NCBI GenBank assembly: GCA_030431635.1
Contig: JAUIIL010000007.1
Location: forward strand, 1-64,000
From: Bacteriovoracia bacterium
GTDB taxonomy: Bacteria; Bdellovibrionota; Bacteriovoracia; Bacteriovoracales; Bacteriovoracaceae
DNA: 64,000 bases
Reading direction: 5' to 3'
A model generated the notes under the pieces. The model ran no database searches. It saw only the letters and a list, made by a program, of their open reading frames with translations, and was not told the DNA's origin. The position numbers and the translations under genes were made by a program. Shown in pieces: positions 19,432 to 41,188 of this stretch. Every line of letters starts with the position of its first letter. Positions within the stretch are counted from its first letter, which is position 1.

Positions 19432-19472
19432 GGAGAAGTTTTTACATTTTTAATTTTTTAAAAGGATGAGAT

Positions 19473-22400
19473 GTGAGAGTTTTTTCCCTATTCGCAGTTG
19501 CGTTGCTGTGCGCATTTTCTAGCTATTCAAGTGAACCGACTCCTAAGGAAATTGAGGTTATTAATCTTTTAAAGAAAACAGATTTTCTTTTGAAAGAAAC
19601 TGTCCAGTCTGATTTTGCCGTTAGAGTCTCTAAATTTAAAACTCCTCAGGAACTAATAAAGGTTCTAGATAGGGCCATTGAATATTTACAAGAAAACCTT
19701 CCTGCTGAATCTAAAGTTCATAACGACATCGTAGTAGGACGATTATATGCCAATACTATTTCGCTATTAATTGCAGGAAGAGGTAGAGAGCGTTTTCAAG
19801 ACCATAAAAACGTTTGGTATTTAAATAACAAAGAAGGCCATTCAGGATTTGATGAATTAATGGATGTTATTTCAAGGGGTAAACTGGATAAGACTCTTAA
19901 GAGAGGGATGATCGATATTGTTAAAAGAATCGATCCAAAAAACTTTAAAATAATGGGAGAGATCCCTAATAAGACAAGTGGATTTATCACTGCTTCTATT
20001 GTGGAGGATATTTTAGAGGCCCTAGAGCAGTCAAATGTTGTGCCAGAGTACACAAATCTTTACGAAGGTATTCACTACGATAAAAAAATGAAAAATGGCA
20101 TTGAAACAACTCGCGCCGTAACCAAGATAACGAACTTACCAACAAAACAAGAAAAAGAATTTAAAGAAAAACCATATTATAAAAATGCCCAAAGAAAGAA
20201 AAAAACATTTGAGCAAATACTTAAAGAAGCCAACTTTATTGACACACTTCCGGCCAATATTAATTTTTATAAAAGATCGGTTGAAATCTATAACAGTGAA
20301 GGTAAAAAGTTTCCACATCCTATTGGAAGAGAGGATTCTTTAAAAAGAATCGTGGATATTCTTGCTAGGCCTAATAAAGCTCATATTGTTCTGACTTCTA
20401 AAATAGGAGTGGATAGAGGAGGAGTTATTCAGCTTCTATCGGATGCATTAATTAATAGAACTTATGTTCTTGCTGATGAAATGACACCAATAGTACTTGA
20501 AATAGACCCATTATATTTAATGGCCCAAGGGGGACCAAGTAAAATCAATACAATTCTTAATAACCTTTCTAGTAAAACAAATAGAAGAGTGGTTGCGTAT
20601 TTTGATGAATCACAGGTAACCCCTGATGTGAATAAAGAAACAATGAAATCATTTCTATCAGAATCTGTTTTAAGCAGTGATGATTCAAAAGTTCAGTATA
20701 TTTTCTCTTTAACCTCAGCGGACTCTAGAAAATTTTTAGATGATGCTTCCTTTGCTTCAAGAATGGAAGAAGTTTACTTGAAAGAACTAGATAAGGATCA
20801 GAGTAAGCAATTAATAAGAGAAAACTTTGAACCAATGTGGAAAGCACATTTTAAGTTAGGAGATTTGAAGTTTAATCAACTTGAAGATGAAGCACTGGAA
20901 TTTGCTGCCAGAAATTTTAAATATGAAAATCCAAATACTGTTCGTTCAAAGGCCATGAGTGAACTTTTTGAAGGGGTTATTGCTCACAGAAGAAGAGTAC
21001 TTAGGGCGGAAGGATATGAAGGTAGTTTTGATATCTCTATTGATAATATAAGAGATTATTTTAGTGATAAATTTAATCAAGACTTAATTCCAGGGAGCGA
21101 AAAATTTAATAGTGCTTTTGAAAGACGCTGGGATGACTTTCAAGCTGTTTATGGTGGTAACGAAGGTTTTAAAGAAGAACTCAGAGAACTTCTTTATTTG
21201 CACTTTTCCGATCCTGATAAAAAACAAATGACTTCAACTATCGTTTTTGGGCCTCCTGGAGCAGGTAAATCTTATGGGGCCCAAAAAATTGCAGATGCTT
21301 ATTTTGATGGAGCCGTTTTGGAGTTAAATGGAGCAGATTTTAAAAAGCCATCGGATGTGAATAAAATTACTGGTTCACCTCCGGGATATGTGGGATCAGA
21401 ACAACAGCGCTCTGTCTTTACTAAGTTTATTAAAGAAAACCCAAATGGTGGAATCATACTGATAGAAGAAGCAGATTATATCCACCCAGACATTATGGAG
21501 CTTTTTACTAACATGATAACCAGTAAAGAGTTTAGGGATGCTCTTGGGAAAGATTATGATGTTGGTAAATATGTTCTTTGGTTAAACTCTAATATTGGGC
21601 AAGAGTATATGATCCCAACAGACTCAAAAAATAAGATGGATTGGTTTCAGTTTAATGTAAGACTCAACCAACTGACTCAAGAGAAGAAAATTAACGGCAG
21701 AGTCGTTCCAATGGTTAGATCTGATAAAAAAATGGAGATGATGAATAAATTTATGGCCGCCGTTGTAAATAACGGCAGAGTTGTGGGAAGTGCTAATAAC
21801 GAAGTCGATGAGAAAGTCTCTCAAGCTGCCCAAAAACAGAATAGAAGATACACTCCTTTATATACAATGCTCCCAAGTAAGGAAGAGCTAAATCAAGCAG
21901 CTCAAATGGTTTTCACTAGCTATAAAACAAAATTAAGCCTGGATTATAACATTGAGCTAGAGGTTTCAGAGAAAACACTTGAGCAGATTATTGATGTTGA
22001 GAATATGGAATTTGAAAAAGGTTACTCCTATGTTCAGGAAAGACTAGATACTTTTCTTTTTAATAAAGTCAATTTTCATAAATCAAAACAAGGAGCAAAA
22101 ATTTCTGTAGAGCTTAAACAAGAAAGAGCAGCTTCTCCTGTTGATAATAAAAACTTATTAGAGCTAACGATTGATAATAAACTCACTAAGTACGATCTTG
22201 GAAACATGCTTCCAGCTTTTGAAAATCAATGGGCAAAAAGTGATGAAATAAAAAACAATATCAAAAATCTTCCTAAGATATTAAGTCAGTATTTAATGGG
22301 AGATGAAGAGATCATTCTTGATATCCAGTCCCAATTAAAAAGACATGTTGTTGATTGGAATTCAAGACCTACAATCACTCTCTTAGGAACAACAGGAAAT

Positions 22401-24170
22401 GGTAAAACTCAAGCAGCGAAGGCCACGGCCAAAGCGGTTTTTGGTTCCTCAACTGCTTATAAAATTCTTCCAACGACAGATGTGGAAGAGTTTAACAGTT
22501 TTCTCAAAGGACAAGAGTTTAAAAACTGGATTGAATCTCGTATCCGCTCAGGTGGAGGAGTTATTGTTTTAGATGAGCTCTTATCAATTCAGCAGAATCC
22601 TCAAGCGAAACTCTATATGTTTAATAAGCTCTATAGTTTCCTTGATGAGGGATATATGACAATTCAAGGGAAGGAGTATGATTTAAGAGCTTTTATTCCA
22701 TTTATTACAGGAAATGCCATGCAAGAATTTTTTCAAGGCGTTCCAGATAACCCAGATGGTGAACAACTTGTTAAAAGAATAATTGAAAAGACTTCTAAAA
22801 AAGATATTGTTCAGTATTTTCAAAATTTTGGTTTTGATGCTCCTAAGATAGCAAGAATGGGGCTCATTAGACTTAAAGGACCTCTTGAGAAAGCAGTTGC
22901 CTATAAAATTGGAAACTTTCTTCTTCAAGACTCATTTGAAAGTATTCTCCATGGCTCTGGGATTTATGTTGATTTTACAGTAGAGCCTAAAGCTATTGAG
23001 CAAATAGTTGATAACTTCTCAACTATTTTACTTGGAATGAGAGACGTCAAAGAAGAGGCCCTTAATAAACTCATTCTCAATCCAATAGCGAGTATTATCA
23101 TTGATATGCCTCAAGTAAAAAAAGTAAAACTCGGCCTTGATAAGGAAGGTAAGTTCATTTGGTATGCAGATGAGAGAAGAATTATCCTTCAAAATGAACA
23201 AGTAACTGAAAAGTTAAATCAACAAAACTGGGTCTTTTTAAGTGAAGCTAAAAAAGAAGGCAATACAAAAGATTTTACTCTTCAGCTTGAAAATGTAAAA
23301 CCAAAAAGAAGAGAGATGACAAGGGCCATGAAAGAAACAACACGTATTCACGAGGTTGAAGGTCACTGGATGGTTGATTATCTTTTAAATGGAAAAAATG
23401 GGGCTGAGTCCATTAACCTTATTCCAGGGGAAGGTTACCTAGGTTATATGAGACCTAAGCCTAAAGCCCAAATTGATGTAAGCACTCTTTACACAGAAAT
23501 GAAAAACGTGATTATGCTTGAAGCTGGTCACCGTGCTGTTTTTCAAAGAGGAACCTTTGAATACGGAGGAGGCTCTAGTGGAAGACAGCGAGATCCAAAG
23601 TCTTCAGCGAGTGATGATTTAGGAAGAGTTGAAGAAGCCTTTAATCGTATTCTTTCTCAAAATATTTTTGAAGATTATGTTGAGTTTTCAAAACCAGCGA
23701 ATGTTTTTCTCTTTAAAGACACTCTTAGAATGATTGGGAAATACTCCGCTGACTATGTTATTGCCTATGGAAATGAAATAGGAGTTTCAGAGGGAATTAA
23801 TTCTGAGTTCACGAAAAAAATCCAAAGAGGTGAACAAGAGTTTCTCAACGAAGAAGAAATTGAGCTTTTTGTGAAGGAATTTCAACAAAAGCATAAAATG
23901 AAAAATCATGAAGAGCTTTTCTATGAAGCCATTATTTTTGCTATAGAAAAATATATGGATAGGGAAGACTTTGCTGATGAAGCTGCATTAAAAAAACTCA
24001 AGCTTCTTAAAGATTTTGCCTCTAGCCTTAGTGTTGAGATTAGAACAACAACGAGAAGACTTAACACTGCTTCTGCTGTTTATGAAAATCACAAGAGATT
24101 AGAGGAAAAATTACTCAAATCAAGAGCAAAATTTCTCCAAAATTCAGAGTGTAACAATCATTTCAAATAA
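19473..24170 (+). CDS. Giant exported ClpB-like AAA+ protein with C-terminal FtsH (M41)-like domain
   Basis: This 1565-residue protein starts (GTG, AAGGATGAG upstream) with a signal peptide, residues 1-20. Residues ~286-505 align with ClpB AAA-1, but the P-loop is destroyed (IGVDRGG where GVGKT is expected); an Asp-Glu remains at the Walker B site. Next is a ClpB AAA-2-like module: Walker A FGPPGAGKS (~593-600), pore loop GSPPGYVGSE and IILIEEAD. A third AAA+ module has GTTGNGKT (~972-979) and VIVLDEL. From ~1285 an FtsH-peptidase-like domain follows (KETTRIHEVEGHW, INLIPGEGYLG, SASDDLGRVEEA). Its zinc motif is HEVEGH, one residue longer than HEAGH. ClpB and FtsH are cytoplasm-facing, so a signal peptide is unexpected. 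Confidence 0.8.
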   Translation: MRVFSLFAVALLCAFSSYSSEPTPKEIEVINLLKKTDFLLKETVQSDFAVRVSKFKTPQELIKVLDRAIEYLQENLPAESKVHNDIVVGRLYANTISLLIAGRGRERFQDHKNVWYLNNKEGHSGFDELMDVISRGKLDKTLKRGMIDIVKRIDPKNFKIMGEIPNKTSGFITASIVEDILEALEQSNVVPEYTNLYEGIHYDKKMKNGIETTRAVTKITNLPTKQEKEFKEKPYYKNAQRKKKTFEQILKEANFIDTLPANINFYKRSVEIYNSEGKKFPHPIGREDSLKRIVDILARPNKAHIVLTSKIGVDRGGVIQLLSDALINRTYVLADEMTPIVLEIDPLYLMAQGGPSKINTILNNLSSKTNRRVVAYFDESQVTPDVNKETMKSFLSESVLSSDDSKVQYIFSLTSADSRKFLDDASFASRMEEVYLKELDKDQSKQLIRENFEPMWKAHFKLGDLKFNQLEDEALEFAARNFKYENPNTVRSKAMSELFEGVIAHRRRVLRAEGYEGSFDISIDNIRDYFSDKFNQDLIPGSEKFNSAFERRWDDFQAVYGGNEGFKEELRELLYLHFSDPDKKQMTSTIVFGPPGAGKSYGAQKIADAYFDGAVLELNGADFKKPSDVNKITGSPPGYVGSEQQRSVFTKFIKENPNGGIILIEEADYIHPDIMELFTNMITSKEFRDALGKDYDVGKYVLWLNSNIGQEYMIPTDSKNKMDWFQFNVRLNQLTQEKKINGRVVPMVRSDKKMEMMNKFMAAVVNNGRVVGSANNEVDEKVSQAAQKQNRRYTPLYTMLPSKEELNQAAQMVFTSYKTKLSLDYNIELEVSEKTLEQIIDVENMEFEKGYSYVQERLDTFLFNKVNFHKSKQGAKISVELKQERAASPVDNKNLLELTIDNKLTKYDLGNMLPAFENQWAKSDEIKNNIKNLPKILSQYLMGDEEIILDIQSQLKRHVVDWNSRPTITLLGTTGNGKTQAAKATAKAVFGSSTAYKILPTTDVEEFNSFLKGQEFKNWIESRIRSGGGVIVLDELLSIQQNPQAKLYMFNKLYSFLDEGYMTIQGKEYDLRAFIPFITGNAMQEFFQGVPDNPDGEQLVKRIIEKTSKKDIVQYFQNFGFDAPKIARMGLIRLKGPLEKAVAYKIGNFLLQDSFESILHGSGIYVDFTVEPKAIEQIVDNFSTILLGMRDVKEEALNKLILNPIASIIIDMPQVKKVKLGLDKEGKFIWYADERRIILQNEQVTEKLNQQNWVFLSEAKKEGNTKDFTLQLENVKPKRREMTRAMKETTRIHEVEGHWMVDYLLNGKNGAESINLIPGEGYLGYMRPKPKAQIDVSTLYTEMKNVIMLEAGHRAVFQRGTFEYGGGSSGRQRDPKSSASDDLGRVEEAFNRILSQNIFEDYVEFSKPANVFLFKDTLRMIGKYSADYVIAYGNEIGVSEGINSEFTKKIQRGEQEFLNEEEIELFVKEFQQKHKMKNHEELFYEAIIFAIEKYMDREDFADEAALKKLKLLKDFASSLSVEIRTTTRRLNTASAVYENHKRLEEKLLKSRAKFLQNSECNNHFK

Positions 24171-25858: not shown

Positions 25859-28800
25859 GTGGTGAGATTTTTACTATCTGCTTTTATTCTCTGTTGTATC
25901 CACCATAGTGCAATGGCCACTGATCCCTGTTACCCTGAAAGTGTAAATAAGTTTTCTCAAAGTCTATCAGAGCGAATCAACGAACTTTCAAAAGCGACTG
26001 ACTCTCTAGATAAACTCTCACAAAGTTTGGGTGTTTTTTATGCCAAAGAGCCCTCTGTCAGCGCCAATCAACTCCAGTACTTACTGGATGAAATGCTCCC
26101 AACGCTTAAAATACTTTTTAATGATTTAGAAATTTATAGTTTTATGAATCGTCATTTCTACGAGCAGTATTTAGAACAAGTGATGGTTTACTCAGCTCAG
26201 CTTATTGAAATTAAAGCTCGTATTTTTAATCTTTATTTTAAATTTTATCACTCCCCACTTCGCTATCATTCAAGTTTTTCAAAGCGCTTCTCAATGGATG
26301 AGTTAAGAAAGCTCAATTTGAAACTTTCTCCCAAGTTTGCTTTTGAACTAAGAGAAGCGATGTTTTCCGATGAGGGGAGAACTATTATTTTTAACGGGTT
26401 TCAAAGTAATAAAGCCAAGCATACTCAAGGAAAATGTGAACCAGCCGTTGTTGAATTTGAAACAAGTGAGCTTGAATTTATCGAGCATGAATTTAATGGC
26501 ATGGCGACTCCTGAGAGTTTAAAGGAATACGCTCTTCTTGTTCAGTTTGCTGCTGTTAATACTGGTGTCATTAATAGGGGATTTTTGGAGAGGATAAATA
26601 AAGAATCAATATCAAAAAAAGATATTCTTCAATGCTCAGAAGGAAGTCTTTATTATAGTGATGAGAGAAATAAACAAAAACTTATTAAAAACTTCCCTCT
26701 TCTCCAAGAAGAAGAGAAGAATATTATTTATTACGATAGGTTTTATTTTAATATTCCTCGTATTGTAGAGGATATTACTTCTTTTCACGCTCCTAAAGAA
26801 GAATTGGTTTATAAGACCATAAAAGAAATCATCAAGGATCCAAAAAATAAGAAACTCTTTCAAGCAAAATTTAGTGAATATCCCGGTGATACAGAATCCG
26901 TTGATTTTTGGATAGAAAGTTTATCCCAAGCTATTTACCAAAAATTAGCAGAAAAAATTAATTCAGAAATTAAATTTGCTGTCTTTACTGCTAATTATAA
27001 TGGAGACTCTCTTTCAGTAGAGAGCATTGCTAATAATATCCAAAACCAAATTCACTATACCTACGTAGACCTAATGAGGTTTTTACTAGAAATAGAGTTT
27101 TCAAATGTTGATACCTTACAAGATCTTAATAAATGGCAATATATTAATCTTGTTTTAGAAAAAGTAAAAAAAGAGAAAGAATTATGGACGACTGGAATTA
27201 GAGAAGTTGTCATCGAAAGATTAAAGCAAAACTATGATCCGAATGTGGATAAGAGCGATTATTATAGGAAAAAGAAAATTCATGAAATACTGACTGCGAT
27301 TGTAACGAAAGTTGATGCTATTTACTTAAAAGAAATTTTAGAAAACAAATTAGATGAAGAAAAAATTAACGAAGAAAGTGAGCAAAGTCTTCACGAGTTT
27401 GAAGTTCTTAAGTTTCCTGAATACAAAGGTCAAGCAAATCTATCTCCTTCAAATATGGAGCTTTTAGGAGAATTTTTCTCTTATAAACTTGAAAAAATTA
27501 AAACAAATCCACTGCTCTCAAAAAGATATATAAGATTATTTCATGGATTAAAATTCAATGGCCCATTAAAAGCGTTAGTAATGAAGTTCTTTGTAGAGCT
27601 AAACCAACGTTTTACAGAAAGGATTAGTAAAGAAGTTCAAATGGATCCTAATATTGATTTAACCCTTGGCCAACTAAGAGAGAGATTTGTTATAAATAAA
27701 ACAATTGTACAGAAAATTTTATGGCAAGAAGCGACTTTATTAGCTCAAGAAATGATGGCCCAATATTCTGAAAAAATCTCTGCTTCAAGGCCAGAATACC
27801 TAACTTATAAAGAGTTAAATAGTTATTTAGAATATGACAAACTTTCACAAAGGTGTTTGCTTTCAAGAGGATGTCGAGGATATAACTCGTATGCCAAAGA
27901 TATTGTCAATAAAATGGAGAATGTGACCTTACAGGAAAACCTAGATGAGAGCCAAGTCACGCGCTATGTTCAGGCGATAGATAACGGTGAGCAAATTCCG
28001 GTTGATTTAAGTGAAATAAAATCACCTCAAGGGATGCCTACTTATGGAAATGATAAAATAAACTATATTGAAGGGAGACCTTTTATCCCTATGTATAAAA
28101 AATTAGATGAAGCACTTTATGACTTTTTCTCCTTTGTTAATATTGTCCCTAGTTTAAGATATCCCAATAAACTGCTTCCAGAGAGCCCTGGATTTCTTCG
28201 TGATATCTATGAATATCAATTTATGCTAGATAAGTTTTTGTCAGATCTTTTGGTAAGAGAGCCTATTTTAAATATTCCTTTTGATAAAAAAGAAACTGCG
28301 ATTAAGAAAGTTAATGTATATGATCCTCAATATAAAAATAGATCAGTTTATTATGAAAAAGAAATAGAAACAGAAAAGAAAGCTCTTTATGCGCTACTGG
28401 ATGCTTATGACATAAAAACGAATGTTTTTAATTTGGACAAAGCTCGAGAAATAATTGAGAAGATTATTACTGTTGCTACCCAAAAAAGTGGGGAAACTTT
28501 AGAGAAATGGTGCTCTGCCAGTTATGCTAATTACAAAATTGATAATAATTTTAAGGAACTCTTTAGAAATTTAACTGGAGTAAGAAAAACACTACAAGCT
28601 CAAATTCAAGGTAAGATATTAAGTGGAGATGAAAGAATAATAGGAGATGGCCAACAAATTTTAGAAAGAATTTCTAAGTTTGATAGTATGCTTGAACAAG
28701 AAACCCAAACAAACTGGCAAAAGGCCCAAAGAGAAATTGTGGAGCCTGTTTCTCTTGTTGTTGGAGCTATTGTTGGTCTCTCTCTCATAGGTTCTATTTT

Positions 28801-30565
28801 TCTATTTGCTGGAGGAGCTCTCTCTACCGCGAGTACGTTGTTTGCTTTTGCAGGGAAAAATATTTTTCTTCTCATCTTCGCAGGTTCTTTTGGGTTAAGA
28901 ATGGTAACTCACTTTTACACGACTCCAACACAACTTCAAAAGCAAAAAAGTATTGGTCAGCTCTATCTTAAAGGACACTCTGCCGTTGACTGGGATAAGT
29001 ATGAAAAAGAAGTTAAAGAAAATTTTCATGAAAGAACAAATAAATGGTTAATACCTGAAGCCGTACTGAATATTTCTTTTTTACTCCCTATTTACCATAG
29101 TGCTAAAAGCTTTCTGGGACTAAAAATTCCTAAAATTCTAAAGAAGTGGGGCGTTCCTATTATCAATGAAGGAAATCTATATAACAAACCAAGAAAGATA
29201 AACCTTAAAGCGGTTTTTAAGTCTAAAACACCTAAAAGCTTTTTTTCGAATACTCAGTCTTATATTTCTTATCATTTAAGACTGTTAAAAAAAGTGAATG
29301 CGAGAAGATACCAACCCTACACGGGAGAGAATATCACTTTATTCTTCAAGAAGTATCTGGAACTTCTAGGAGGAAAGTATCTAAAAGATTCTTATGCTCC
29401 TAAAGCAGTTAAATGGCTAGAGGAGAAAATTGCCAAGATTAAAGGACAGCTTGAGTACGCTGAGTATCACTATCTTCCTAACCCAGTAGCTGAAGAAGGT
29501 GTTTTAAACGTTGTCGACGAATCCCAACGTTTTTATAAACTGAGGTTGGATAAATCAATGAAGCTCATTGAGTTTATTCAAAACCCAAAGCTTTCCAAAT
29601 GGTATTTTGAGCGCTTTACAGAGAAGAGGTTTATTCCTAAAGAGTTGATAAGAAGAGTTCGTGCAGGCGATAAGGCAGCTATTAAAGAGTATATGAAAGA
29701 GTATGGGGAACTCATTGAAAAATTTGAAATTTTAAGAGGACGTCAACGTTTTGAACTCATGAGATCTCTAGAATCTGTCCTAAAAAAGATAAAAGAGTTA
29801 CAGTTGGCGGCAAAAACATCAATTATTGATGATACTGAAGGTGCTATTGCAGCTGAAGGTATTTTTGAGCAGTTATTTAAGATGTCAGGTGATTCATCTA
29901 TTGAAATGCGCGAAATCCTTGCTCTTAGACAGTCAGGCTTCTTTAAGATTTTCCCAAAAGAAATCAAGGAAGTCTTTCATAATAGTTATAAAGACTACTT
30001 CGAGTTGCAATCTGTGAGATACCTCGATTTTATGGGGAAAAGTAAAGCTGCATGGGCCGCAGAGGAGTCAGGTGATACATTTTTTCTTAATGATAGCTTC
30101 TTTGATCCTAGAGAGTTTGGAAAGAGAAGGTATTTTGATTCAAAAAGTGCTACCATTTTTGGAGAGGAAACTGGGGAGAGTATTAAAAATGTACGAACCT
30201 TTAAAGGGATTAGTTTCAAAAAATTAACAGATGCCTCTGTTCCACTTGTTGTGGCTTCATCCTTCATCTATAAGCATTGGCAAAAATATAAAGAAAATAA
30301 AGATGAATCTCAATATGAAGAGGCCATTGAAAATGTTTTAAAAGAACTTCAGCAGTTAGAAAATAGTAAAATTTGGCAAAGCGATTTAGACCAAGAAGAA
30401 CTAAAGGAAATAGCAGATAGAGGTGTTTTGGAAGAGTTAAAGGCTTTTTATGCCATTATTCAATATGAATTGGACCTAGAGCTTGCGAATGATGTGGTAG
30501 ATGGAGCAAGCATTGATACTTTAGGGCAAGCTCTTGAGAAGATTGAGGAGTTAGAGAAAAAATGA
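25859..30565 (+). CDS. Giant exported helical protein with two internal membrane segments, unknown
   Basis: This 1568-residue protein has a GTG start with AAAGG upstream and a clear signal peptide (MVRFLLSAFILCCIHHSAMA, cleavage before TDPC). The mature part is overwhelmingly charged and helical, with many Lys/Glu-rich stretches that could form coiled coils. Two adjacent hydrophobic segments lie at about 964-986 and 1000-1016, so roughly 940 residues precede and 550 follow the membrane hairpin. I recognise no family or catalytic motif. Its near-equal length to the AAA+ protein at 19473 is probably coincidence. It is coupled by a 4-base overlap to the small gene at 30562. Confidence 0.75.
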   Translation: MVRFLLSAFILCCIHHSAMATDPCYPESVNKFSQSLSERINELSKATDSLDKLSQSLGVFYAKEPSVSANQLQYLLDEMLPTLKILFNDLEIYSFMNRHFYEQYLEQVMVYSAQLIEIKARIFNLYFKFYHSPLRYHSSFSKRFSMDELRKLNLKLSPKFAFELREAMFSDEGRTIIFNGFQSNKAKHTQGKCEPAVVEFETSELEFIEHEFNGMATPESLKEYALLVQFAAVNTGVINRGFLERINKESISKKDILQCSEGSLYYSDERNKQKLIKNFPLLQEEEKNIIYYDRFYFNIPRIVEDITSFHAPKEELVYKTIKEIIKDPKNKKLFQAKFSEYPGDTESVDFWIESLSQAIYQKLAEKINSEIKFAVFTANYNGDSLSVESIANNIQNQIHYTYVDLMRFLLEIEFSNVDTLQDLNKWQYINLVLEKVKKEKELWTTGIREVVIERLKQNYDPNVDKSDYYRKKKIHEILTAIVTKVDAIYLKEILENKLDEEKINEESEQSLHEFEVLKFPEYKGQANLSPSNMELLGEFFSYKLEKIKTNPLLSKRYIRLFHGLKFNGPLKALVMKFFVELNQRFTERISKEVQMDPNIDLTLGQLRERFVINKTIVQKILWQEATLLAQEMMAQYSEKISASRPEYLTYKELNSYLEYDKLSQRCLLSRGCRGYNSYAKDIVNKMENVTLQENLDESQVTRYVQAIDNGEQIPVDLSEIKSPQGMPTYGNDKINYIEGRPFIPMYKKLDEALYDFFSFVNIVPSLRYPNKLLPESPGFLRDIYEYQFMLDKFLSDLLVREPILNIPFDKKETAIKKVNVYDPQYKNRSVYYEKEIETEKKALYALLDAYDIKTNVFNLDKAREIIEKIITVATQKSGETLEKWCSASYANYKIDNNFKELFRNLTGVRKTLQAQIQGKILSGDERIIGDGQQILERISKFDSMLEQETQTNWQKAQREIVEPVSLVVGAIVGLSLIGSIFLFAGGALSTASTLFAFAGKNIFLLIFAGSFGLRMVTHFYTTPTQLQKQKSIGQLYLKGHSAVDWDKYEKEVKENFHERTNKWLIPEAVLNISFLLPIYHSAKSFLGLKIPKILKKWGVPIINEGNLYNKPRKINLKAVFKSKTPKSFFSNTQSYISYHLRLLKKVNARRYQPYTGENITLFFKKYLELLGGKYLKDSYAPKAVKWLEEKIAKIKGQLEYAEYHYLPNPVAEEGVLNVVDESQRFYKLRLDKSMKLIEFIQNPKLSKWYFERFTEKRFIPKELIRRVRAGDKAAIKEYMKEYGELIEKFEILRGRQRFELMRSLESVLKKIKELQLAAKTSIIDDTEGAIAAEGIFEQLFKMSGDSSIEMREILALRQSGFFKIFPKEIKEVFHNSYKDYFELQSVRYLDFMGKSKAAWAAEESGDTFFLNDSFFDPREFGKRRYFDSKSATIFGEETGESIKNVRTFKGISFKKLTDASVPLVVASSFIYKHWQKYKENKDESQYEEAIENVLKELQQLENSKIWQSDLDQEELKEIADRGVLEELKAFYAIIQYELDLELANDVVDGASIDTLGQALEKIEELEKK

Positions 30566-32081: not shown

Positions 32082-34619
32082 TTATTGTTGTCTTGCGTTT
32101 TCTTCTCGGAACTTTTTATTTCTAAACTGTCTTACAATATTTAATGCTGATTGAATGGACTCTTCTGAGTAGCCTAATTCATCAATCATAACTCTTGAAA
32201 AGTTATCAAAAACTTGGGCAAAGTTTTCATCAACATTGCCGTTGTTTCTCGTATAACTCCAAAGCTTATCAATACTTGCTGAATTAACTTTTTCTTCAGA
32301 GAGGTATTCCAATATTGTTTGTCTTAACGGTTTCCAAAACTCACCATCTTGACCAGTTCCTTGCATACTAATGAGGTTATTGGCCGAAAGAGGTTGTCCA
32401 TTTCTTTTGTGAAATATCTCTTTGATACGGGCAAGTCTTTTATCATCAATAAGTTCAGGTGTTCCAGTTTGAGTATCATACGTCTTTGCATATGGATCAG
32501 CATTTCTAGCGAGTAAAGATTGCTTGATTTCATTGTAAATTGGAGCCACTTCGTCAGAGCCACTGTTATAAGCTAAAATAATATCTTCCTCTATTGAAGG
32601 AATAATCATTTGTAAGAAAACTCTTTCAGCAAGACCCAGCCACTGATTTCTAATGGTTGGACTATTCTTTGTTACCGCAATTTTCTTTTGCAAGAGACTG
32701 TCATTAAGGACGTGCAAAATTGAATCGTAGGTAATACTTGAAAAGTTTTTATTAACAGCATAATCAAAAAGTTTTCTAATCCAGTTACCAGCGGCATCCC
32801 TGTTAGAAATTCCTGTCAAGCCTTCTTTAAGAGCGTGGTGAAGTTGAAAAAGTTCTTGCTCGACGGAAGGTGGTACCTCATGATCTCCAATAAAGTATCT
32901 AATCCTTACGATAGGATCTCTGAAGACTGGTTTTGTTGGAGTATGCATGTGCCCTAAGCCTTCTTTGTTAACTTCGTTAAGGCTTGTCTTAATACGAGTT
33001 GCTGAAATGATGTAGCTAATAGCTTCAAGAGTATGGGGTGGGATATCAATTGTTTTTCCTCTGTACTCCATACTTAAAGCATAGTTTGATTCATGTGTTT
33101 GTAGTTTTTGCGATTTGGTTCCATTACTTTGAGGTATAGGGTATAGTTTATTAATATCAGCAGTTACCCACTTTTCCCCGCTTGTCTTAGGTCCAATTTT
33201 TTTCATTTTCAGTGACTGTTGAGTTGGTCTCATCATTAAGACCATTGTTCTCGCAATGTCTTGAGGAACGACTCCAAGGTTCATATCAACAGGAGTCATC
33301 CTATCAATAGTTGCCTTGAGTTGCCCCCCTTCAGCGATTGCTTTTTCAATAGACTCAGTGTTGGTAATAACAAGAGGTACGTAATCGAGTTGGATAACTT
33401 GCGAACCACCTAATTCAATTTTTCTTGATTCAAAGGATTCTAAAAGATAGTCGATAAGATCTTGAGGATTTCTCATGAACTCGTCAAATAAAACAACCCC
33501 TCCATGCCCTCTTAGAACCTTACCATTATAGTGGTAAGAATGAGCATCTTTGGGACCTTTTGTAATCTTTACGATAGGGTTATCACTAACAAATAAACCA
33601 GCAAGATCGACATCCTTACCTTGTGCACTTACAAGAGGGAAAATATCTTTTCCTTCCCTAATAATTCTTTTAACTTTAATGTGATTGTCCAAAATTTCGA
33701 TGACTTTTTCATCAGTAAGTTCACCATATTTTTGAGGATATTCTCTCTGATAGTGAGCGATAACTTTATTATAGATAGACTCAGTAATAGGGTCTTTCCC
33801 ATTGAAAACTTTTAATCCCGAAGTTATTTTCTCTTTTACGATGGGTTCAGCTTCTGTAATGATTTGCTCCTGTAAGCTTTTTGGAAGGAGAACAAATGGG
33901 GAGTCATCAATAGGAGCTTCAATTGGAGACATGTACTCCACTGTTTTATTCCCTTGCTTGTAAGAAACGAGCTGGCTTTGATAGTAGAAGCGTAAATCAG
34001 GAATATTTTCAAGACCAACCCATTCAAATGTATAGCGGTAGTAGAAAGGATGTGTTTTAGATAAATTAGATGAAAGTGCTGAGAAAACTCGAGGAAGCTC
34101 AGACTTACCAGTTCCAGAAGTTCCTGCAAGAAGAAGGGCTTTCCCTTTAACTTCGTTACCTTCAGCTTGAGCTTCAAAGTAAGCACCTATTTGTTCAAGG
34201 GCTTCGTAGTTTCCAACAATCATCAACCCATCAGTTAGTTCGGGTGCTCCCCCACTCAATGTAGGATAAATTTTTCTTGTACCGTTATTGTAAATAGGGT
34301 CTTTTACTTCATAAGCTGGAACAGCGTTAAGCCACGCAGCTGTTTTTTGACCGGAGTGCATTAAGTTAATAGGACTTTGAACTAAAAGTTTTTGTTCAAT
34401 CATTTCCTTCAAACTAAACCTTTTGTTCTCAATGTCTCTTTTTTCTGAAGTTGTGAGCTTAGTCACTTTACCACTATAACTTTCATCTACATTACAACCG
34501 GGCTTGGCGGCTGCTAGTAATTTACTTGGTGAAGTGGCAAATAAACTCGCTGCTAGTAAAAACAGTGGTAATTTTCTCATTTTTTTCCCGCTTTTCTTTT
34601 TTTGATTTGTTCCCTTCAT
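32082..34619 (-). CDS. Exported PrkA (YeaG)-like AAA+ ATPase
   Basis: This 845-residue protein starts at ATG 34619 (AAAGGG upstream; an in-frame ATG at 34658 lacks a site). A long basic n-region and hydrophobic core form a signal peptide ending near KLLAAA. Walker A GTSGTGKS is at 166-173. Downstream blocks follow the PrkA AAA domain: MSPIEAPIDDSPFVLLP (PrkA SPVNDHPFCLFNP), NGKVLRGHGGVVLFDEFMRNPQDLIDYLLESFE (PrkA SGALCRANQGIMEFVEMFKAP) and ITNTES then IDRMTPVDM (PrkA AHSNES and LDRVYIVKV). Known PrkA proteins are cytoplasmic AAA+ proteins reported as Ser kinases or proteases that work with YeaH and YcgB/SpoVR. Both partners occur fused at 41189. It is divergent from the giant AAA+ gene at 34901. 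Confidence 0.82.
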   Translation of the reverse strand: MKGTNQKKKSGKKMRKLPLFLLAASLFATSPSKLLAAAKPGCNVDESYSGKVTKLTTSEKRDIENKRFSLKEMIEQKLLVQSPINLMHSGQKTAAWLNAVPAYEVKDPIYNNGTRKIYPTLSGGAPELTDGLMIVGNYEALEQIGAYFEAQAEGNEVKGKALLLAGTSGTGKSELPRVFSALSSNLSKTHPFYYRYTFEWVGLENIPDLRFYYQSQLVSYKQGNKTVEYMSPIEAPIDDSPFVLLPKSLQEQIITEAEPIVKEKITSGLKVFNGKDPITESIYNKVIAHYQREYPQKYGELTDEKVIEILDNHIKVKRIIREGKDIFPLVSAQGKDVDLAGLFVSDNPIVKITKGPKDAHSYHYNGKVLRGHGGVVLFDEFMRNPQDLIDYLLESFESRKIELGGSQVIQLDYVPLVITNTESIEKAIAEGGQLKATIDRMTPVDMNLGVVPQDIARTMVLMMRPTQQSLKMKKIGPKTSGEKWVTADINKLYPIPQSNGTKSQKLQTHESNYALSMEYRGKTIDIPPHTLEAISYIISATRIKTSLNEVNKEGLGHMHTPTKPVFRDPIVRIRYFIGDHEVPPSVEQELFQLHHALKEGLTGISNRDAAGNWIRKLFDYAVNKNFSSITYDSILHVLNDSLLQKKIAVTKNSPTIRNQWLGLAERVFLQMIIPSIEEDIILAYNSGSDEVAPIYNEIKQSLLARNADPYAKTYDTQTGTPELIDDKRLARIKEIFHKRNGQPLSANNLISMQGTGQDGEFWKPLRQTILEYLSEEKVNSASIDKLWSYTRNNGNVDENFAQVFDNFSRVMIDELGYSEESIQSALNIVRQFRNKKFREENARQQ

Positions 34620-34733
34620 GAAGTCTACCCTTTGAAAAATTATAACAATCAATTGCAACAGAAATTGGCTGTAAAGATTTATCTAAAAATTAAATCCATT
34701 GCCGCGCTAATATAAATAAATAAATCTTGAAAA

Positions 34734-34831
34734 AAAGCCCCATTGTAAACTCTACCCAATTTCTTTTTATGACGCTTTGCGCAATCAGGAGTTTTTTAAT
34801 TATACCCTTATAGAGTTTACATAGGGGCTTT
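34734..34831. repeat. Long inverted repeat in the divergent promoter region
   Basis: AAAGCCCCATTGTAAACTCTA (34734-34754, 20 bases after the first) and TAGAGTTTACATAGGGGCTTT (34811-34831) are inverted repeats matching at 19 of 21 positions, with 56 bases between. They flank the candidate promoter of the gene at 34901 in the 281-bp region between it and the PrkA-like gene. They could be paired operator half-sites 77 bp apart, or a stem in a transcript from further upstream. Confidence 0.7.
34777..34806 (+). promoter_or_regulatory. Candidate promoter of the giant AAA+/SpoVR operon
   Basis: TTGCGC and TATACC are separated by 18 bases. The start would be near 34813, at the edge of the right arm of the inverted repeat, so a protein bound there would block it. 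The leader would be about 90 bases. Confidence 0.4.
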
Positions 34832-34900
34832 AAGGGTTGAGTCATTTTTGACTAATATCCAGGATGTTTTAGATCTAAATGGGAAAAAGGTTGCTCTTCT

Positions 34901-37900
34901 ATGAATACGGACAAAGCTCTACATTTTATAAAGAATACTCTCTTGGTGTGTTTGCTAAGTATCTTAGTTAATCAAAAGATAAGTTTTGCTAATACTGAGG
35001 TCATGTACAATATTGATGGCTCAACTCCTTACATGATTGTCTATAAGGATAATGTTGGTGCTTCTAAAAGAGCTCCTGGTATCTACAAAGCCGACGGATC
35101 AAACTGGATAGAAATTTTTCAAGGGAAGCTTCTCTCATTAAAAGGTAAGCACGGGGTTGCTCATCCATTGAAAGAAGTTAGTCGATTTACTTCTCTCTTT
35201 GACTCTATAATTGTTATTGATGGTGAACTTGTTTTGTTTAATTGGGATTCTGACCAAAAAAACCCTGAAAGTTTTACAAATTTTTCTAATTCAAGTGTAC
35301 TTAGAGACCCCTTGTCTAGGTTGCCAATAAAGCTGAATGAAATAACAAGCCTAGATCAAATTAGTGTTGTTGAAGTTGATTCTTTAGATGACTATCAAAC
35401 AATTCTCGTTTCAGTTAGTCAGGAGTCTTTGTATGGTAACGGGTTTACTTTTTTCGCCAACCTTTCTTTTAACTCAGAGGGACCTAGAATCATAGGTGTT
35501 CCCTATATTATTAATTATGATTTTTTAAAGTCTCATGAGTTAAAAAAACTCTATATTGAAGAGGAAGAAAGTGTTTTTTCTAAAAATATATTAAGAAATA
35601 TGATGGCACTACTGGAGGGTTCGAACAGCGTTCAGGCACAAAATTGGGTCTCTCAAATTTCCCTTTCTCTTCCAAACCTCACCTCGCCGAATGATTTGCC
35701 AGTACAAATAGAAAATCTTCCTCTTTTAAAAACGGAAACGGGAAAGGTTTTTGTGAAAGAACCTTTAACAGAAAACTTTAGTTCTTCTAGATATACGGTT
35801 TTAGATGAGAGTTTTAATCTTCTTAATGGTGAGAAGAAAGTTGTTTTTCAAAGCCATGTTACCCAGGGGAAGAAGACAGAAATCAAAGGAGAGTTTTCAA
35901 GAGGTAAAAAAAGTAAAGTATTCACCTCTTTTGATAGTCAATCAAGCTTGGCAGTGATTGATAGTGAAATTGTTTGGTTAGATGAAAGAATGATTTTAAA
36001 GAAGGTCGAAGATATTGAAGGGTTGAAAAACATATCCCATCGTCATTCTGATTCTTTTGATCAAAACGGAAGAGAAGTTAATATTATGGTTCTGTCGATG
36101 GAGTTTGAAGACAGTTCAGAAAATGTAACAGAGGCGTTTTACTATGAGGTTGAAGATGAAATCTCTAGGCTTACAAAAAGAGTAACTTTGGCGAACGAGT
36201 TTTTTGAAAAAGATGAATTAGAATACAGACTAGTAGAGCATGAAGGTACTCCTTTATTTGATAATATAACAAAAGTTCCCAAAGGAAAATCATATGGAGA
36301 GGTCGAAGATTCTCACACGGCAAGGGTCGACCTTACAACTTCTAATGATGGTGAATTAAAATACTTTTTCATGTACCCTATAGATGAAACACTATTATCT
36401 CGAGATGTATATTACATGAAATATAACTCAAAAGGTTTAAGCGAAAACCCTTCTGGTTTTTATCTGGGTGTTAAAAACTCAAGTGGATACGAAGAGAAAA
36501 AGTTAATAAAGAAAGCGGAACTTATATCTTACAAGACAGGAGAAGGGGAGCAAATTATTAACCTTCTCCCTGTATCAAAGTCAGAGATTAGCATAACTAA
36601 GAAAAACTCTCTTAAGGTTGTAGCAAATCTTTTTGCTCTAGATCCAAGTTTTAAAGCGGGGGAAGACGGAATAGAGCTGATGTTAAGGTTATTTCCAGAT
36701 GGAACTGATAATGTTGGTAAAGCTTACTCAAGTTCAATTGAGTACATTAACTTGAAAGGAATGAAGTTAAACCAATTGGATGGTGCTCAAGTTTTTTTTA
36801 ATCGAGCAACAAACGGAATTACGAAATTTTTCCTTGCATTAAACTTTGTTCAACAACAAGGGTCAAAGTTTTTTCCCAAAGGAGGAGTAAGAGTCTACTC
36901 TTTAAACCTAGAGGTTAATCCAAGCACTGGGAAATTGAGTATTGCAGAGGATTCTTATATTAATTTTGAAGGAGAGGAGTTAACTCAGGAAGAGGTAAGT
37001 ACCCGTGTTGTTTTTGACGAATCGCGCGGGGAGTTCTTCTGGATTATGGATCCTGATAAAGCGAGAGATTCAAGAGATTATGCTCTTAAGAACCTTGCAA
37101 ATAACTCCGTCATTTATCCAGCTGTTGATAAAAGATATAACATTAACTTTAATTACAACTCACAAAAACTAGAAGAGAGCATGGGGGGGGATAGTCTTTC
37201 TGCTGCATGGGGAAATCAGTCGAAATACGATGCCTCATGGTATCGCGCTGGTTTGAGTCGATATTCAAAATCTGAAGATGCTCCTGAAATTTTTGGTCAG
37301 TTTTCAGGTGAAGATTACTACAAATACTTTATTGCAAATTCAGTTCTTGATATTAAAGATGCAAATGGATACCGATTAACTCTAACAAAAGATACCCATG
37401 AAGAAATGCTAAACAAGTTATCTGAACAGATGGCGACTTTAATGACTTCTGAAACTCCCAAACATCTATTTTTTGTAGCGGATAGTCCGTTAGAGAAGGA
37501 AGTCATAAAAACGTTTTTAAGCTTTATTCATTTACATGGGCATGAAAAAGCGAAATGGGAGAGAAAATATAGCGACGATTTTTATTACGTTCGTCCAAAT
37601 AACTATGATGTGGCAGAGATTAGGGCCAATTATAAAGCAATTAGGGAGTCTAAAAAGAAGTATGTGTTTGCAGATCTTGCAAGCTTTTCCTTAAGTGAAC
37701 CTTTCTTACTTGATGATGAATCAAAAGAGACACCTGCTTGGGAATTACCTCTTGATAACGGGGTTCAAATGCCCCTGACTGTTCCATATTATCTATTAAC
37801 TGACGGTAGAGAGTTGACTCTCGATGAAATAAAAAAAGGGATAACGCCTCAAAATAATACAATTTTCATTGGAACAACGAGTGAGTTTCAAAAAATGCAG

Positions 37901-40900
37901 CAGAGTATCCAGCCAGCAATTGATGTTGGTTTAATGGATCACGTTGAAGTTATTTGGGATAATGTTTACGATAAATACCTTTTTAACAAAAGTTCAGAAC
38001 TGTATAAAAAAGTTTCTAGAAACATGGTTCGGGTATCTGAAAAGAATCTATTTGAAGATTTAGATAAGTTCTTGGAGAAAATCGCCTCAATAGATGAAAA
38101 AAATGGAAATTATATTATAGAGGTAGATTCTAGCATTAAAGAAACATTACAAGAGATCATTTTTACTTGGTATGCGTTCGACTTCAGAAACGATGAGGGT
38201 GAAACCAAATGGAATTTAAAAAACAAAGATTTAAACCTTGTTGTTCTCCCCTCTAGTGAATTAGGAGAGGATACAGACTTGTCAAAATTGAAATTCCAAC
38301 AAGGCTTGCAAACAGTTATGGAAGCAATGAAGGCCAGCGCTAAAAACAAGAAGGGAATTATTTTTGGAGATTTAAAGGATATCATTGATTACGGTCCTCT
38401 CAAAATGAAGAGTAGTAAAAAAGCTCTTAACTCAGAGGAGCTTAAAAAAGTTACACTTGTTGATGATAAACTAGATAAAGCTAGCCAAGAGAGTGTTGCT
38501 CACTACGCTTGGCATTTAGTTAGTGAAGAGGTTAATAACAATCCAAACGCGTTATCTAAAGCTGCAGATAAAAAGAAATTATCAACAGTCTTTATTGGGA
38601 CTAAAAAGGAAATAGAGCGCTTTTTGCAAGATACTAGTTTTGAAGGTCGTTTAGGTCTTCATGATGCTTTTGAGACAATCAGCTTGAGTGAACCATCAGT
38701 TGAGGACATGGTTTCTGTTATTTATGAGTATTTTGATAGTGAAGAGTTCAAAAGACTTGGTTACCGTTTTGCAATGAAAGGAAAGTCAGAAGAGAACGCT
38801 CGCTCAGGGATTATTGATTACTTTGCAAACAAGGTAATGAGCTACAGTAATATGGAGAAAAAATCCGTTGTTTTGATGTTCTCAAAAGCACTAGATGAAC
38901 TTTCATCAATTTGCTCTAGAGACATAAAACTTAGAAAACTTAAAGTTGTTAACGAAGGAATTATTGAAACCGTTATTACAAAAACTTTCAACCTCGCTAT
39001 TAATCCTAAAATATTACCACCAGAAGATCCTTTGGTTTTGATTAATAACTCAGATGAGTTTATTGAGAAATTAGGAGAGTTGAATAAGTTAAAAGCATAT
39101 GATGCTCCTTATGAATTAAAACAATTAGTTGCTGAGGTTCTAAAGTCTCAATCGACAAGCACTTCTTCAAGTATTGCCATACCTTCCTCTGTTGTTCTTT
39201 ATGGTGATTCATCTACCGGTAAAACATTTCTTTTTCACAAGATAGCAGATGTTCTAAATCTTGATTATTATGATTATACGAACCCGAATAAAGAAGGTGT
39301 TGGAGCTCTTGTTGTTGATGTTAATAAAATTGTACCCGATCCAAGTAATATGCCAGCTGATGAAAAAACGAGAAACACGGTAAAGCCTTTATATAAAGAA
39401 CAATTAACTATTTCTGAACAAATAGCCCATATTAATAATTTTTTAAGTCAGCCAAACGGTTACAGAGGCTTCATTCTTTTTGATGATGTTCATAAAGCAT
39501 CAGACTCCACAGTATTAAATGCCTTGATGGATTATATTAAATCGATATTTGAAGCGAAAGAGGGGGTATTCAAAGTTGGAACTTCTGACGGAATAAAAGA
39601 AATACCTGTAAGAAATCTAAACCTCTTTATGACTTTAAACCCATCTGAAGCTGTTATTGATGCTTTAGCAAAAGATCCAAATGCTTTTGATGATTATAGG
39701 GCGATTGCAAAGTCTTTAGAAAAAGAAAATGCTTCTTTTGAGCCTTCTATTTTTCAACGATGGGGAAGAATCATTAATTTAAGTGAGTTTCATTCCGAAG
39801 CGAAAGGCTCAGCTCTCTTAGGTGAGTTGAGAGGTGCTGCAAAAAACTCTTTTACTCAAAACAAAGGTGTTTTAATTCCAACTGCGGAAGCTGTTGAGGA
39901 TTTGGTTTCAAGTTTTCCTAAGGCCAATGCAAGAGAGTTCTTGGCCAATGCAACGATGGCCATATCTGAAAAAGCTTTTTTCGCAGAATCTCCTCTTGAG
40001 GAAACTGTAGCAACGGGGAAAATTTTAGTCCCCACTTCTAGCTTACATGTAATTAAACCAGAGGAAGAAACTATTGAGGGAGAAGGAGTTGTTAAGCCTG
40101 TTACAAGCTCTGGCCATAGATGGGATAGAAATTTCGAAGCTTCAGGTTCAGATAGAGGGAAAATAGTAAAATATGTAAATGAAAACTTTTCAGCGATCCC
40201 TATTAACTCAGAAGCAGTCGACTCGAAGGTTCTATTTACAGATTACCTTGTTAATAATTTTAGGAACTACTTTCATTCTGAATATTTAGGGTTTTTATTA
40301 AAAGATAAAAACTTTTCCGTTGGGAGTAATCGAAAATTTATCCTTAATCCTTTCATGCTAGCTCTAGAGGACCTCTATGTCGATGTTCCGGTTCTTCCTC
40401 GAGCAGCTTACTTAAAAGCACCTGGGAAACTAGGCGTTAGTACAATTTCTGGTAAAGGAAAGTTTCGCTCTCTTGTCAAAAGTGGAACAGCTGCAGATGA
40501 CATGCGCTACTTTATGCAAATCCCTATAAAGGGTTCAGGAGATGTTCAAAGTGAAAGCTTTTTATTTGAACCAGTCGTGAAACAACGTAATAGATTAAAT
40601 GTTTTCGCTGACTACTACAATAGAATTCAACATATCCTCAAAGAAGTTCAAAGTTACTATTTAAGAGTTGATAAAGTGAGAGATCTACCGAGCTCAGAGC
40701 AATGGGTAGATGGTTTGAAACAAAAAGAACAAACGTTTAAAGGTTTCACAGATAGTTTTGAACAAATAAAGCAGCTGTTTTTTGAATTCAACGTAGATAT
40801 GGTTGCTGATGATTTACATGAGGTTGTTGAAGGTTATCAAAACTACCCAGAGATAAATCAATTTGAAACTAGTCGTATTTTCCTCTCCCTTGTGGATCAG

Positions 40901-41185
40901 GCGATTGCTGGATTACCGAATGAAGATTTTTCTTATTTCATGATAAAGGTATTGGAAGAAATCTCAAGTGATGTAAGCCTTGTTCAAAAAGTAGATCTTC
41001 TAAATTACCTTTTTGAAAGTCAGGTGAGTTTGTTTCAAACAACAACACCTCAAAAACTTATGCAAACTCTTCACAGCTCAAAAATTTATAAAGATTATAG
41101 GAAAGAGAATTTGGATAAATTGTCGAAAGGTTTTAAGTCAAGATGTAGCAATAACGAGCTTTATAGTGGAAAGAATCAGGAATAG
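34901..41185 (+). CDS. Giant exported protein with two decayed ClpB-like modules and one intact AAA+ module
   Basis: This 2094-residue protein has a signal peptide (residues 1-31, ...NQKISFA). Residues ~32-800 look beta-rich and are unrecognised. At ~850-1040 a module matches a Clp AAA-1 layout without a P-loop: HLFFVADSPLEKEV at the Walker A place, KKYVFADLASF at Walker B, then IFIGTTSEFQKM (ClpB CIGATTLDEYRK). A second decayed copy at ~1113-1330 has GIIFGDLKDII, VFIGTKKEIERFL, then LSEPSVEDMVSVI (ClpB VEEPSVEDTIAIL). The third module is intact: Walker A GDSSTGKT (~1434-1441) and GFILFDDVHK (~1522). A ~430-residue helical C-terminus follows. It is in an operon with the SpoVR-DUF444 fusion 3 bases downstream. 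Confidence 0.8.
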   Translation: MNTDKALHFIKNTLLVCLLSILVNQKISFANTEVMYNIDGSTPYMIVYKDNVGASKRAPGIYKADGSNWIEIFQGKLLSLKGKHGVAHPLKEVSRFTSLFDSIIVIDGELVLFNWDSDQKNPESFTNFSNSSVLRDPLSRLPIKLNEITSLDQISVVEVDSLDDYQTILVSVSQESLYGNGFTFFANLSFNSEGPRIIGVPYIINYDFLKSHELKKLYIEEEESVFSKNILRNMMALLEGSNSVQAQNWVSQISLSLPNLTSPNDLPVQIENLPLLKTETGKVFVKEPLTENFSSSRYTVLDESFNLLNGEKKVVFQSHVTQGKKTEIKGEFSRGKKSKVFTSFDSQSSLAVIDSEIVWLDERMILKKVEDIEGLKNISHRHSDSFDQNGREVNIMVLSMEFEDSSENVTEAFYYEVEDEISRLTKRVTLANEFFEKDELEYRLVEHEGTPLFDNITKVPKGKSYGEVEDSHTARVDLTTSNDGELKYFFMYPIDETLLSRDVYYMKYNSKGLSENPSGFYLGVKNSSGYEEKKLIKKAELISYKTGEGEQIINLLPVSKSEISITKKNSLKVVANLFALDPSFKAGEDGIELMLRLFPDGTDNVGKAYSSSIEYINLKGMKLNQLDGAQVFFNRATNGITKFFLALNFVQQQGSKFFPKGGVRVYSLNLEVNPSTGKLSIAEDSYINFEGEELTQEEVSTRVVFDESRGEFFWIMDPDKARDSRDYALKNLANNSVIYPAVDKRYNINFNYNSQKLEESMGGDSLSAAWGNQSKYDASWYRAGLSRYSKSEDAPEIFGQFSGEDYYKYFIANSVLDIKDANGYRLTLTKDTHEEMLNKLSEQMATLMTSETPKHLFFVADSPLEKEVIKTFLSFIHLHGHEKAKWERKYSDDFYYVRPNNYDVAEIRANYKAIRESKKKYVFADLASFSLSEPFLLDDESKETPAWELPLDNGVQMPLTVPYYLLTDGRELTLDEIKKGITPQNNTIFIGTTSEFQKMQQSIQPAIDVGLMDHVEVIWDNVYDKYLFNKSSELYKKVSRNMVRVSEKNLFEDLDKFLEKIASIDEKNGNYIIEVDSSIKETLQEIIFTWYAFDFRNDEGETKWNLKNKDLNLVVLPSSELGEDTDLSKLKFQQGLQTVMEAMKASAKNKKGIIFGDLKDIIDYGPLKMKSSKKALNSEELKKVTLVDDKLDKASQESVAHYAWHLVSEEVNNNPNALSKAADKKKLSTVFIGTKKEIERFLQDTSFEGRLGLHDAFETISLSEPSVEDMVSVIYEYFDSEEFKRLGYRFAMKGKSEENARSGIIDYFANKVMSYSNMEKKSVVLMFSKALDELSSICSRDIKLRKLKVVNEGIIETVITKTFNLAINPKILPPEDPLVLINNSDEFIEKLGELNKLKAYDAPYELKQLVAEVLKSQSTSTSSSIAIPSSVVLYGDSSTGKTFLFHKIADVLNLDYYDYTNPNKEGVGALVVDVNKIVPDPSNMPADEKTRNTVKPLYKEQLTISEQIAHINNFLSQPNGYRGFILFDDVHKASDSTVLNALMDYIKSIFEAKEGVFKVGTSDGIKEIPVRNLNLFMTLNPSEAVIDALAKDPNAFDDYRAIAKSLEKENASFEPSIFQRWGRIINLSEFHSEAKGSALLGELRGAAKNSFTQNKGVLIPTAEAVEDLVSSFPKANAREFLANATMAISEKAFFAESPLEETVATGKILVPTSSLHVIKPEEETIEGEGVVKPVTSSGHRWDRNFEASGSDRGKIVKYVNENFSAIPINSEAVDSKVLFTDYLVNNFRNYFHSEYLGFLLKDKNFSVGSNRKFILNPFMLALEDLYVDVPVLPRAAYLKAPGKLGVSTISGKGKFRSLVKSGTAADDMRYFMQIPIKGSGDVQSESFLFEPVVKQRNRLNVFADYYNRIQHILKEVQSYYLRVDKVRDLPSSEQWVDGLKQKEQTFKGFTDSFEQIKQLFFEFNVDMVADDLHEVVEGYQNYPEINQFETSRIFLSLVDQAIAGLPNEDFSYFMIKVLEEISSDVSLVQKVDLLNYLFESQVSLFQTTTPQKLMQTLHSSKIYKDYRKENLDKLSKGFKSRCSNNELYSGKNQE

Positions 41186-41188
41186 GAA

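Follow-up and report, generated by a model that had tools for sequence, protein, structure and literature searches.

A predicted exported ClpB-FtsH hybrid protease of Bdellovibrionota carrying a conserved C-terminal cysteine

Introduction

Clp and FtsH machines assemble into hexameric rings in which pore loops thread the substrate in an ATP-driven manner, with degradation taking place in a zinc chamber. Textbook AAA+ proteases work where ATP is found, in the cytosol or an organelle matrix, or facing it. In FtsH, AFG3L2 and YME1 the M41 peptidase lies C-terminal to an AAA module; ClpB, ClpA and ClpV are built from AAA modules with a GYVG pore loop and Walker and sensor motifs, and these Hsp100 proteins have a partner peptidase or none. 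Torsins are eukaryotic, Clp-related AAA ATPases located outside the cytosol, in the ER lumen, with a single AAA and no peptidase.

The protein described here is encoded in the 64,000-nucleotide stretch of a Bacteriovoracia genome that was analysed (the window). With FtsH-type proteases it shares the position, zinc ligands and fold of the M41 domain, but its family differs from FtsH in having ClpB-type AAA modules, up to three in number, a cleavable-type signal peptide without transmembrane segments and a lone C-terminal cysteine; the window clade, which unites the window protein with its nearest three relatives (L035, L046 and L047), additionally has HExxGH as its zinc motif. The AAA modules, GYVG loop, Walker and sensor motifs are shared with ClpB, ClpA and ClpV, from which the protein departs in its fused peptidase, dead AAA-1, third AAA and export signal. 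It also resembles Torsins in being a Clp-related AAA protein predicted to lie outside the cytosol, with weak similarity in Pfam. The hexapeptide HEXXGH is likewise found in M49 dipeptidyl peptidases (DPP III), a family in which the motif likewise varies between six and five residues (PMC5805324); M49 enzymes have no AAA, and the third ligand of the window protein is an Asp aligned with that of FtsH, not the Glu of the second M49 motif. A search of the open-access literature found no report of a ClpB-FtsH fusion, an exported PrkA or SpoVR, or a terminal cysteine tag, and the exported ClpB-FtsH hybrid is apparently an unreported protein family of Bdellovibrionota.

Gene and domain architecture

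The gene begins with a GTG codon at 19473, and its GC content (34.7%) is similar to that of the window.

19462..19466, + strand: ribosome-binding site AAGGA, 6 nt 5' of the GTG start (sequence)
19473..24170, + strand: exported AAA-AAA-AAA-M41 protein, 1565 aa (ORF, domain and profile searches)
19473..19532, + strand: Sec-type signal peptide, residues 1-20 (sequence; common to complete relatives)

The encoded protein comprises, in order, the signal peptide, a helical N-region, AAA-1, AAA-2, AAA-3 and M41. Residues 1-20 (MRVFSLFAVALLCAFSSYSS, followed by EPT) have the appearance of a Sec signal peptide, and relatives carry one at the same position; the sequence contains no transmembrane segment, in which it differs from the membrane-anchored FtsH. 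The original prediction had described this reading frame as a signal-peptide-bearing fusion of ClpB-like AAA modules and an FtsH-like peptidase, and profile searches, about 40 relatives and control proteins bear it out: the ORF is real, and its start codon opens the signal-peptide segment instead of lying downstream of the hydrophobic stretch.

The AAA modules

20325..21107, + strand: AAA-1, degenerate Walker A (TSKIGVDRGGV, residues 308-318); end approximate (ClpA-type match 245-713, motifs)
21150..22022, + strand: AAA-2, Walker A GPPGAGKS, pore loop GSPPGYVGS, Walker B IEEAD; end approximate (PF07724, E 1.6e-17)
22293..23042, + strand: AAA-3, Walker A GTTGNGKT, Walker B VIVLDEL, pore loop deleted; end approximate (family alignments; ClpB match of the family profile, E 6e-53)

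Residues ~245-713 match ClpA, ClpB and ClpV models across two modules, AAA-1 and AAA-2. The window protein thus has the two modules typical of ClpB/Hsp100 and a third besides; no Clp_N domain was matched in it, and it scores 74.7 bits against an NCBIfam ClpB equivalog cut-off of 1232. When a 40-row family profile was compared with the PDB, ClpB chains aligned to columns 3-304 (E 6e-53) and FtsH chains to columns 353-523 (E 2.5e-32). The AAA modules match ClpB and ClpC chains, while FtsH chains match solely over the M41 columns, so the single AAA module of the FtsH type is absent.

As anticipated from the sequence, AAA-1 is dead, its Walker A being replaced by TSKIGVDRGGV (its Walker B reads VVAYFDES); in the relatives L036 and L046 this Walker A is intact. 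AAA-2, predicted to be a ClpB module with a GYVG pore loop, retains both that loop and its Walker motifs. The predicted third AAA is also present, with intact Walker motifs and Pfam matches that are weak in the window protein and clear in relatives, but it needs one correction: family alignments place no pore-loop segment in the window protein, although relatives keep it. With AAA-1 dead and no pore loop in AAA-3, the main motor is likely AAA-2.

The M41 domain and its zinc motif

23265..23972, + strand: M41 (FtsH-type) peptidase domain; ends approximate (profile, alignment and structure searches)
23349..23366, + strand: zinc motif HEVEGH, residues 1293-1298, one residue longer (alignments)
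23616..23618, + strand: third zinc ligand Asp1382 in SASDDLG (invariant column in 40 members and FtsH)

Searched alone against Pfam and NCBIfam, the window protein yields no M41 match, and family-level profiles were needed to place the domain. Among relatives, PF01434 scores 71.4 bits in the G019 protein (best E 1e-19) and 55.7, 44.9, 29.4 and 25.9 bits in others. A profile of the four-member window clade aligned to an FtsH profile with an hhalign probability of 95% (E 2.6e-8), and in the PDB the clade alone matched only FtsH up to E 10 (0.038). Conversely, the family M41 profile retrieves ordinary FtsH proteins of many phyla at 60-90 bits. Together with the FtsH match of the 40-row profile, these searches uphold the M41 assignment. 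An AlphaFold model of the domain, built from 12 family and 27 FtsH rows, reached a pLDDT of 84-93 over residues 20-90, the region outside the core being modelled poorly, and its best Foldseek matches in the PDB were FtsH, AFG3L2, YME1 and FtsHi; because FtsH rows stood in the alignment, this fold match is supportive, not independent. An earlier model from 13 family rows (mean pLDDT 48) was discarded.

Across the 40 rows, the catalytic Glu and the zinc ligands (both His and the Asp) never vary, nor do the AAA-3 Walker B Asp and sensor-1 T/N; conservation exceeds 90% for Walker A, the arginine finger and the sensor-2 Arg. The window protein has the zinc-site residues of FtsH, but their HExGH spacing is not kept: in place of a standard HExxH motif stands HEVEGH. 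L035, L046 and L047 read HETEGH, HEVYGH and HEVYGH, nearly all other members have HExGH, and the insertion was seen in none of the FtsH proteins examined here.

With its expanded motif, the window clade might be catalytically weak or dead. An exported unfoldase whose M41 is dead or regulatory in this clade, acting, in the manner of the FtsHi pseudoproteases of plastids, as a scaffold or chaperone, is in our judgement unlikely, though it is the alternative that survives best. HExxGH does replace HExGH in all four clade members, and the dead AAA-1 and lost AAA-3 pore loop mark a branch that tolerates loss. Against this, the four members, only 27-37% identical, all retain both His, the Glu, the Gly and the third Asp, none of which a dead site would need. 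Moreover, M49 enzymes use HEXXGH, natural members being shortened to HEXXH with an almost unchanged zinc site (PMC5805324), so a site with the extra residue may still be functional. The comparison concerns spacing only, as neither Pfam nor the PDB gave M49 similarity for the window protein, whose ligand Asp and core fold are those of M41.

Distribution of the family

Members occur in about 39 of 369 Bdellovibrionota genomes, most genomes examined being drafts. To follow the taxonomic spread more widely, a 14-row family alignment was scanned against 85,000 species genomes; among the matches listed, the full-length architecture was confined to Bdellovibrionota, the carriers being Bdellovibrionales, Oligoflexia and two groundwater 'Deltaproteobacteria' bins assigned to Bdellovibrionota. 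The remaining matches listed were conventional FtsH or Clp proteins. The number of AAA modules before M41 ranges from one to three among members, and the window's own genome encodes a second AAA-M41 protein of 1073 aa on contig C4. In Bdellovibrio (G154, which we take to be HD100), no AAA-M41 member was found, only ClpB. In G048, an in-frame TAG (L039, 4055-4751) separates a signal-peptide ORF from a 2327-aa AAA-M41 ORF, and may be an assembly error, a pseudogene or a split gene; the same AAA-M41 chain is fused to an FGE-sulfatase-looking domain.

Neighbouring exported machines

25859..30565, + strand: large exported protein, 1568 aa, with two transmembrane segments and no known domain; its gene separates those for AAA-M41 and the PrkA-like protein
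32082..34658, - strand: exported PrkA-like AAA ATPase, sole Cys in KPGCNVDE after the signal peptide (PF08298; relatives)
34901..41185, + strand: exported 2094-aa protein with an AAA domain and the tail SRCSNNELY (sequence)
41189..44812, + strand: exported SpoVR-DUF444 fusion, FSCGNNEHY at the end of the signal peptide (PF04293, PF04285; relatives)

Positions 32082-44812 form a conserved cluster whose products are exported counterparts of the cytosolic PrkA-YeaH-SpoVR set; each of the three proteins combines a signal peptide with a terminal cysteine. Relatives of the PrkA-like protein, found in 24 of 358 genomes, keep both features, and nine of these 24 genomes also encode AAA-M41 (p 2.7e-4, hypergeometric, phylogeny ignored). 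The order PrkA-like, 2.1-kaa AAA, SpoVR-DUF444 is conserved in G268 and G151, and in G268 one 26-kb stretch contains the cluster together with two AAA-M41 genes. Exported SpoVR-DUF444 proteins (L233-L257) often have an additional CxxC ~100 residues past the tag Cys.

Other exported proteins of normally cytosolic type are encoded near AAA-M41 genes. The second AAA-M41 gene of the window's own genome adjoins a gene for a MutS domain III/V protein (contig C4, L034, 4884-6512, - strand) whose signal peptide is followed by FSCNTLLMS. Close to AAA-M41 genes lie also those for a PIN_4-PhoH protein, which carries MSCPGSLLPE besides its signal peptide (L096, 665-2236, - strand), and for exported proteins that resemble LigT/2'-5' RNA ligase and have a terminal Cys (L094, 13119-15077; L096, 12404-14338), and exported ~1000-aa proteins with a C-terminal FGE-sulfatase domain adjoin them at L080 (10323-13631), L081 (10459-13629) and L098 (3049-6195). 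A defence assignment by PADLOC was discarded, the matches being of generic AAA to candidate defence models.

The neighbours also bear on whether the protein could be a delivered digestive enzyme, leaving via Sec and ending up in the bdelloplast or the cytoplasm of the prey, whose ATP would power the digestion of prey proteins. There are predators among Bdellovibrionota, ATP is present in prey and the exported chains are poor in cysteine; the co-clustered PrkA, SpoVR, MutS and PhoH types, however, are not digestive enzymes, and the sole ClpB of the Bdellovibrio genome speaks against the same idea, which we regard as improbable.

Export and cysteine depletion

Every member whose N-terminus lies on the contig has a signal-peptide-like start, called in 28 cases by an in-house heuristic script (not SignalP) and by eye in L083 and L103, compared with 0 of 22 cytosolic Clp ATPase controls of the same phylum; ten other members are without a call, their N-terminus being lost to contig ends, ends of the retrieved segment or frameshifts. 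The cysteine density of the member core is 0.04 per 100 aa, tenfold lower than in the Clp controls (0.49). That the hydrophobic N-terminus is an uncleaved anchor holding AAA and M41 in the cytoplasm, as the N-terminal transmembrane helices do in FtsH, is very improbable even with cleavage here being a prediction, given a basic residue before the hydrophobic stretch and none right after it (an export topology), cleavage sites of the A-x-A kind in most relatives, the depletion of cysteine and neighbours of the same kind that are exported too.

The C-terminal cysteine

24150..24152, + strand: only Cys in the mature protein, in the tail SECNNHFK, 5 residues before its end

A single Cys follows M41 in all 40 scored members, at a distance of 1-28 residues from the end of the chain, where the core rate would place one by chance in 1.3% of proteins, the members being related and hence not 40 independent events. 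The scoring excluded L049, which is a plain FtsH, and L039, whose C-terminus has a fused extension; ordinary FtsH tails have no terminal Cys. The context is mostly C-x-x-[LIF]-[LFY], more loosely C-x-x-[hydrophobic]-[L/F/Y]. At L081, the tail NRCADLLSGKL is repeated in the product of the next gene, close to its mature N-terminus (NRCADLLSGRDV). The repeat keeps the residues but mostly not the codons, which points to selection on the peptide itself; DNA duplication as the source of the shared NRCADLLSG was rejected for this reason.

In unbiased samples of exported proteins, the lone Cys lies at a terminus in 9 of 12 cases in the window genome (expected 2.1), 9 of 10 in G151 (expected 2.5; two are possibly lipoproteins) and 2 of 6 in Bdellovibrio (expected 0.8). 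The strict form C-x-x-hydrophobic-[LIFMY] is matched by just three lone terminal Cys in each genome and is less enriched than position, so the genome-wide claim of a tag rests on position, not motif. For most neighbour families, a reading of the N-terminal Cys as a lipoprotein Cys was rejected, as it lies several residues past the cleavage site without a lipobox. An exported pitrilysin-type M16 protease of the window's own genome (L109, 9966-12824, - strand; 952 aa) has its sole Cys in the tail DCNKKFQ.

Proposed mechanism and implications

From its sequence features, we consider the window gene product to be an extracytoplasmic single-chain AAA+ protease, probably active and tethered via its terminal cysteine, with a probability of about 60%, and we infer a self-contained unfoldase-protease outside the cytoplasm, as originally suggested. 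After Sec export and cleavage by signal peptidase I, the chains would form a hexameric ring in which AAA-2 pulls the substrate through its GYVG loop, AAA-3 hands it on and the M41 ring beneath cuts it; AAA-1 would have a structural role, and the HExxGH site would still bind zinc, as in M49 enzymes. The cysteine tail may tether the enzyme, through a disulphide or other thiol bond, to an envelope partner common to the other tagged machines. The site of action would be the periplasm or, for predators, the prey remnant with its released ATP. The periplasm is not known to contain an ATP pool, which counts against an extracytoplasmic AAA+ protease, and prey ATP as its energy source is only a possibility.

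More tentatively, and with less than even confidence, some Bdellovibrionota may run an exported ATP-dependent protein-maintenance system comprising AAA-M41, the PrkA-like AAA, the 2,100-aa AAA, SpoVR-DUF444 and, at some loci, ATPases of the MutS and PhoH types. Its components would carry Sec signals and an undescribed tag, C-x-x-[hydrophobic]-[L/F/Y], that binds a common envelope partner, and would draw on a dedicated extracytoplasmic ATP supply.

The M41 domain of the window clade provides a natural six-residue variant of the zinc motif and with it a direct test of the spacing that the FtsH active site tolerates. The exported family as a whole raises the question of how such machines are supplied with energy outside the cell interior; if the proposed system is real, some bacteria would maintain both ATP and the machines that it drives outside the cytoplasm.
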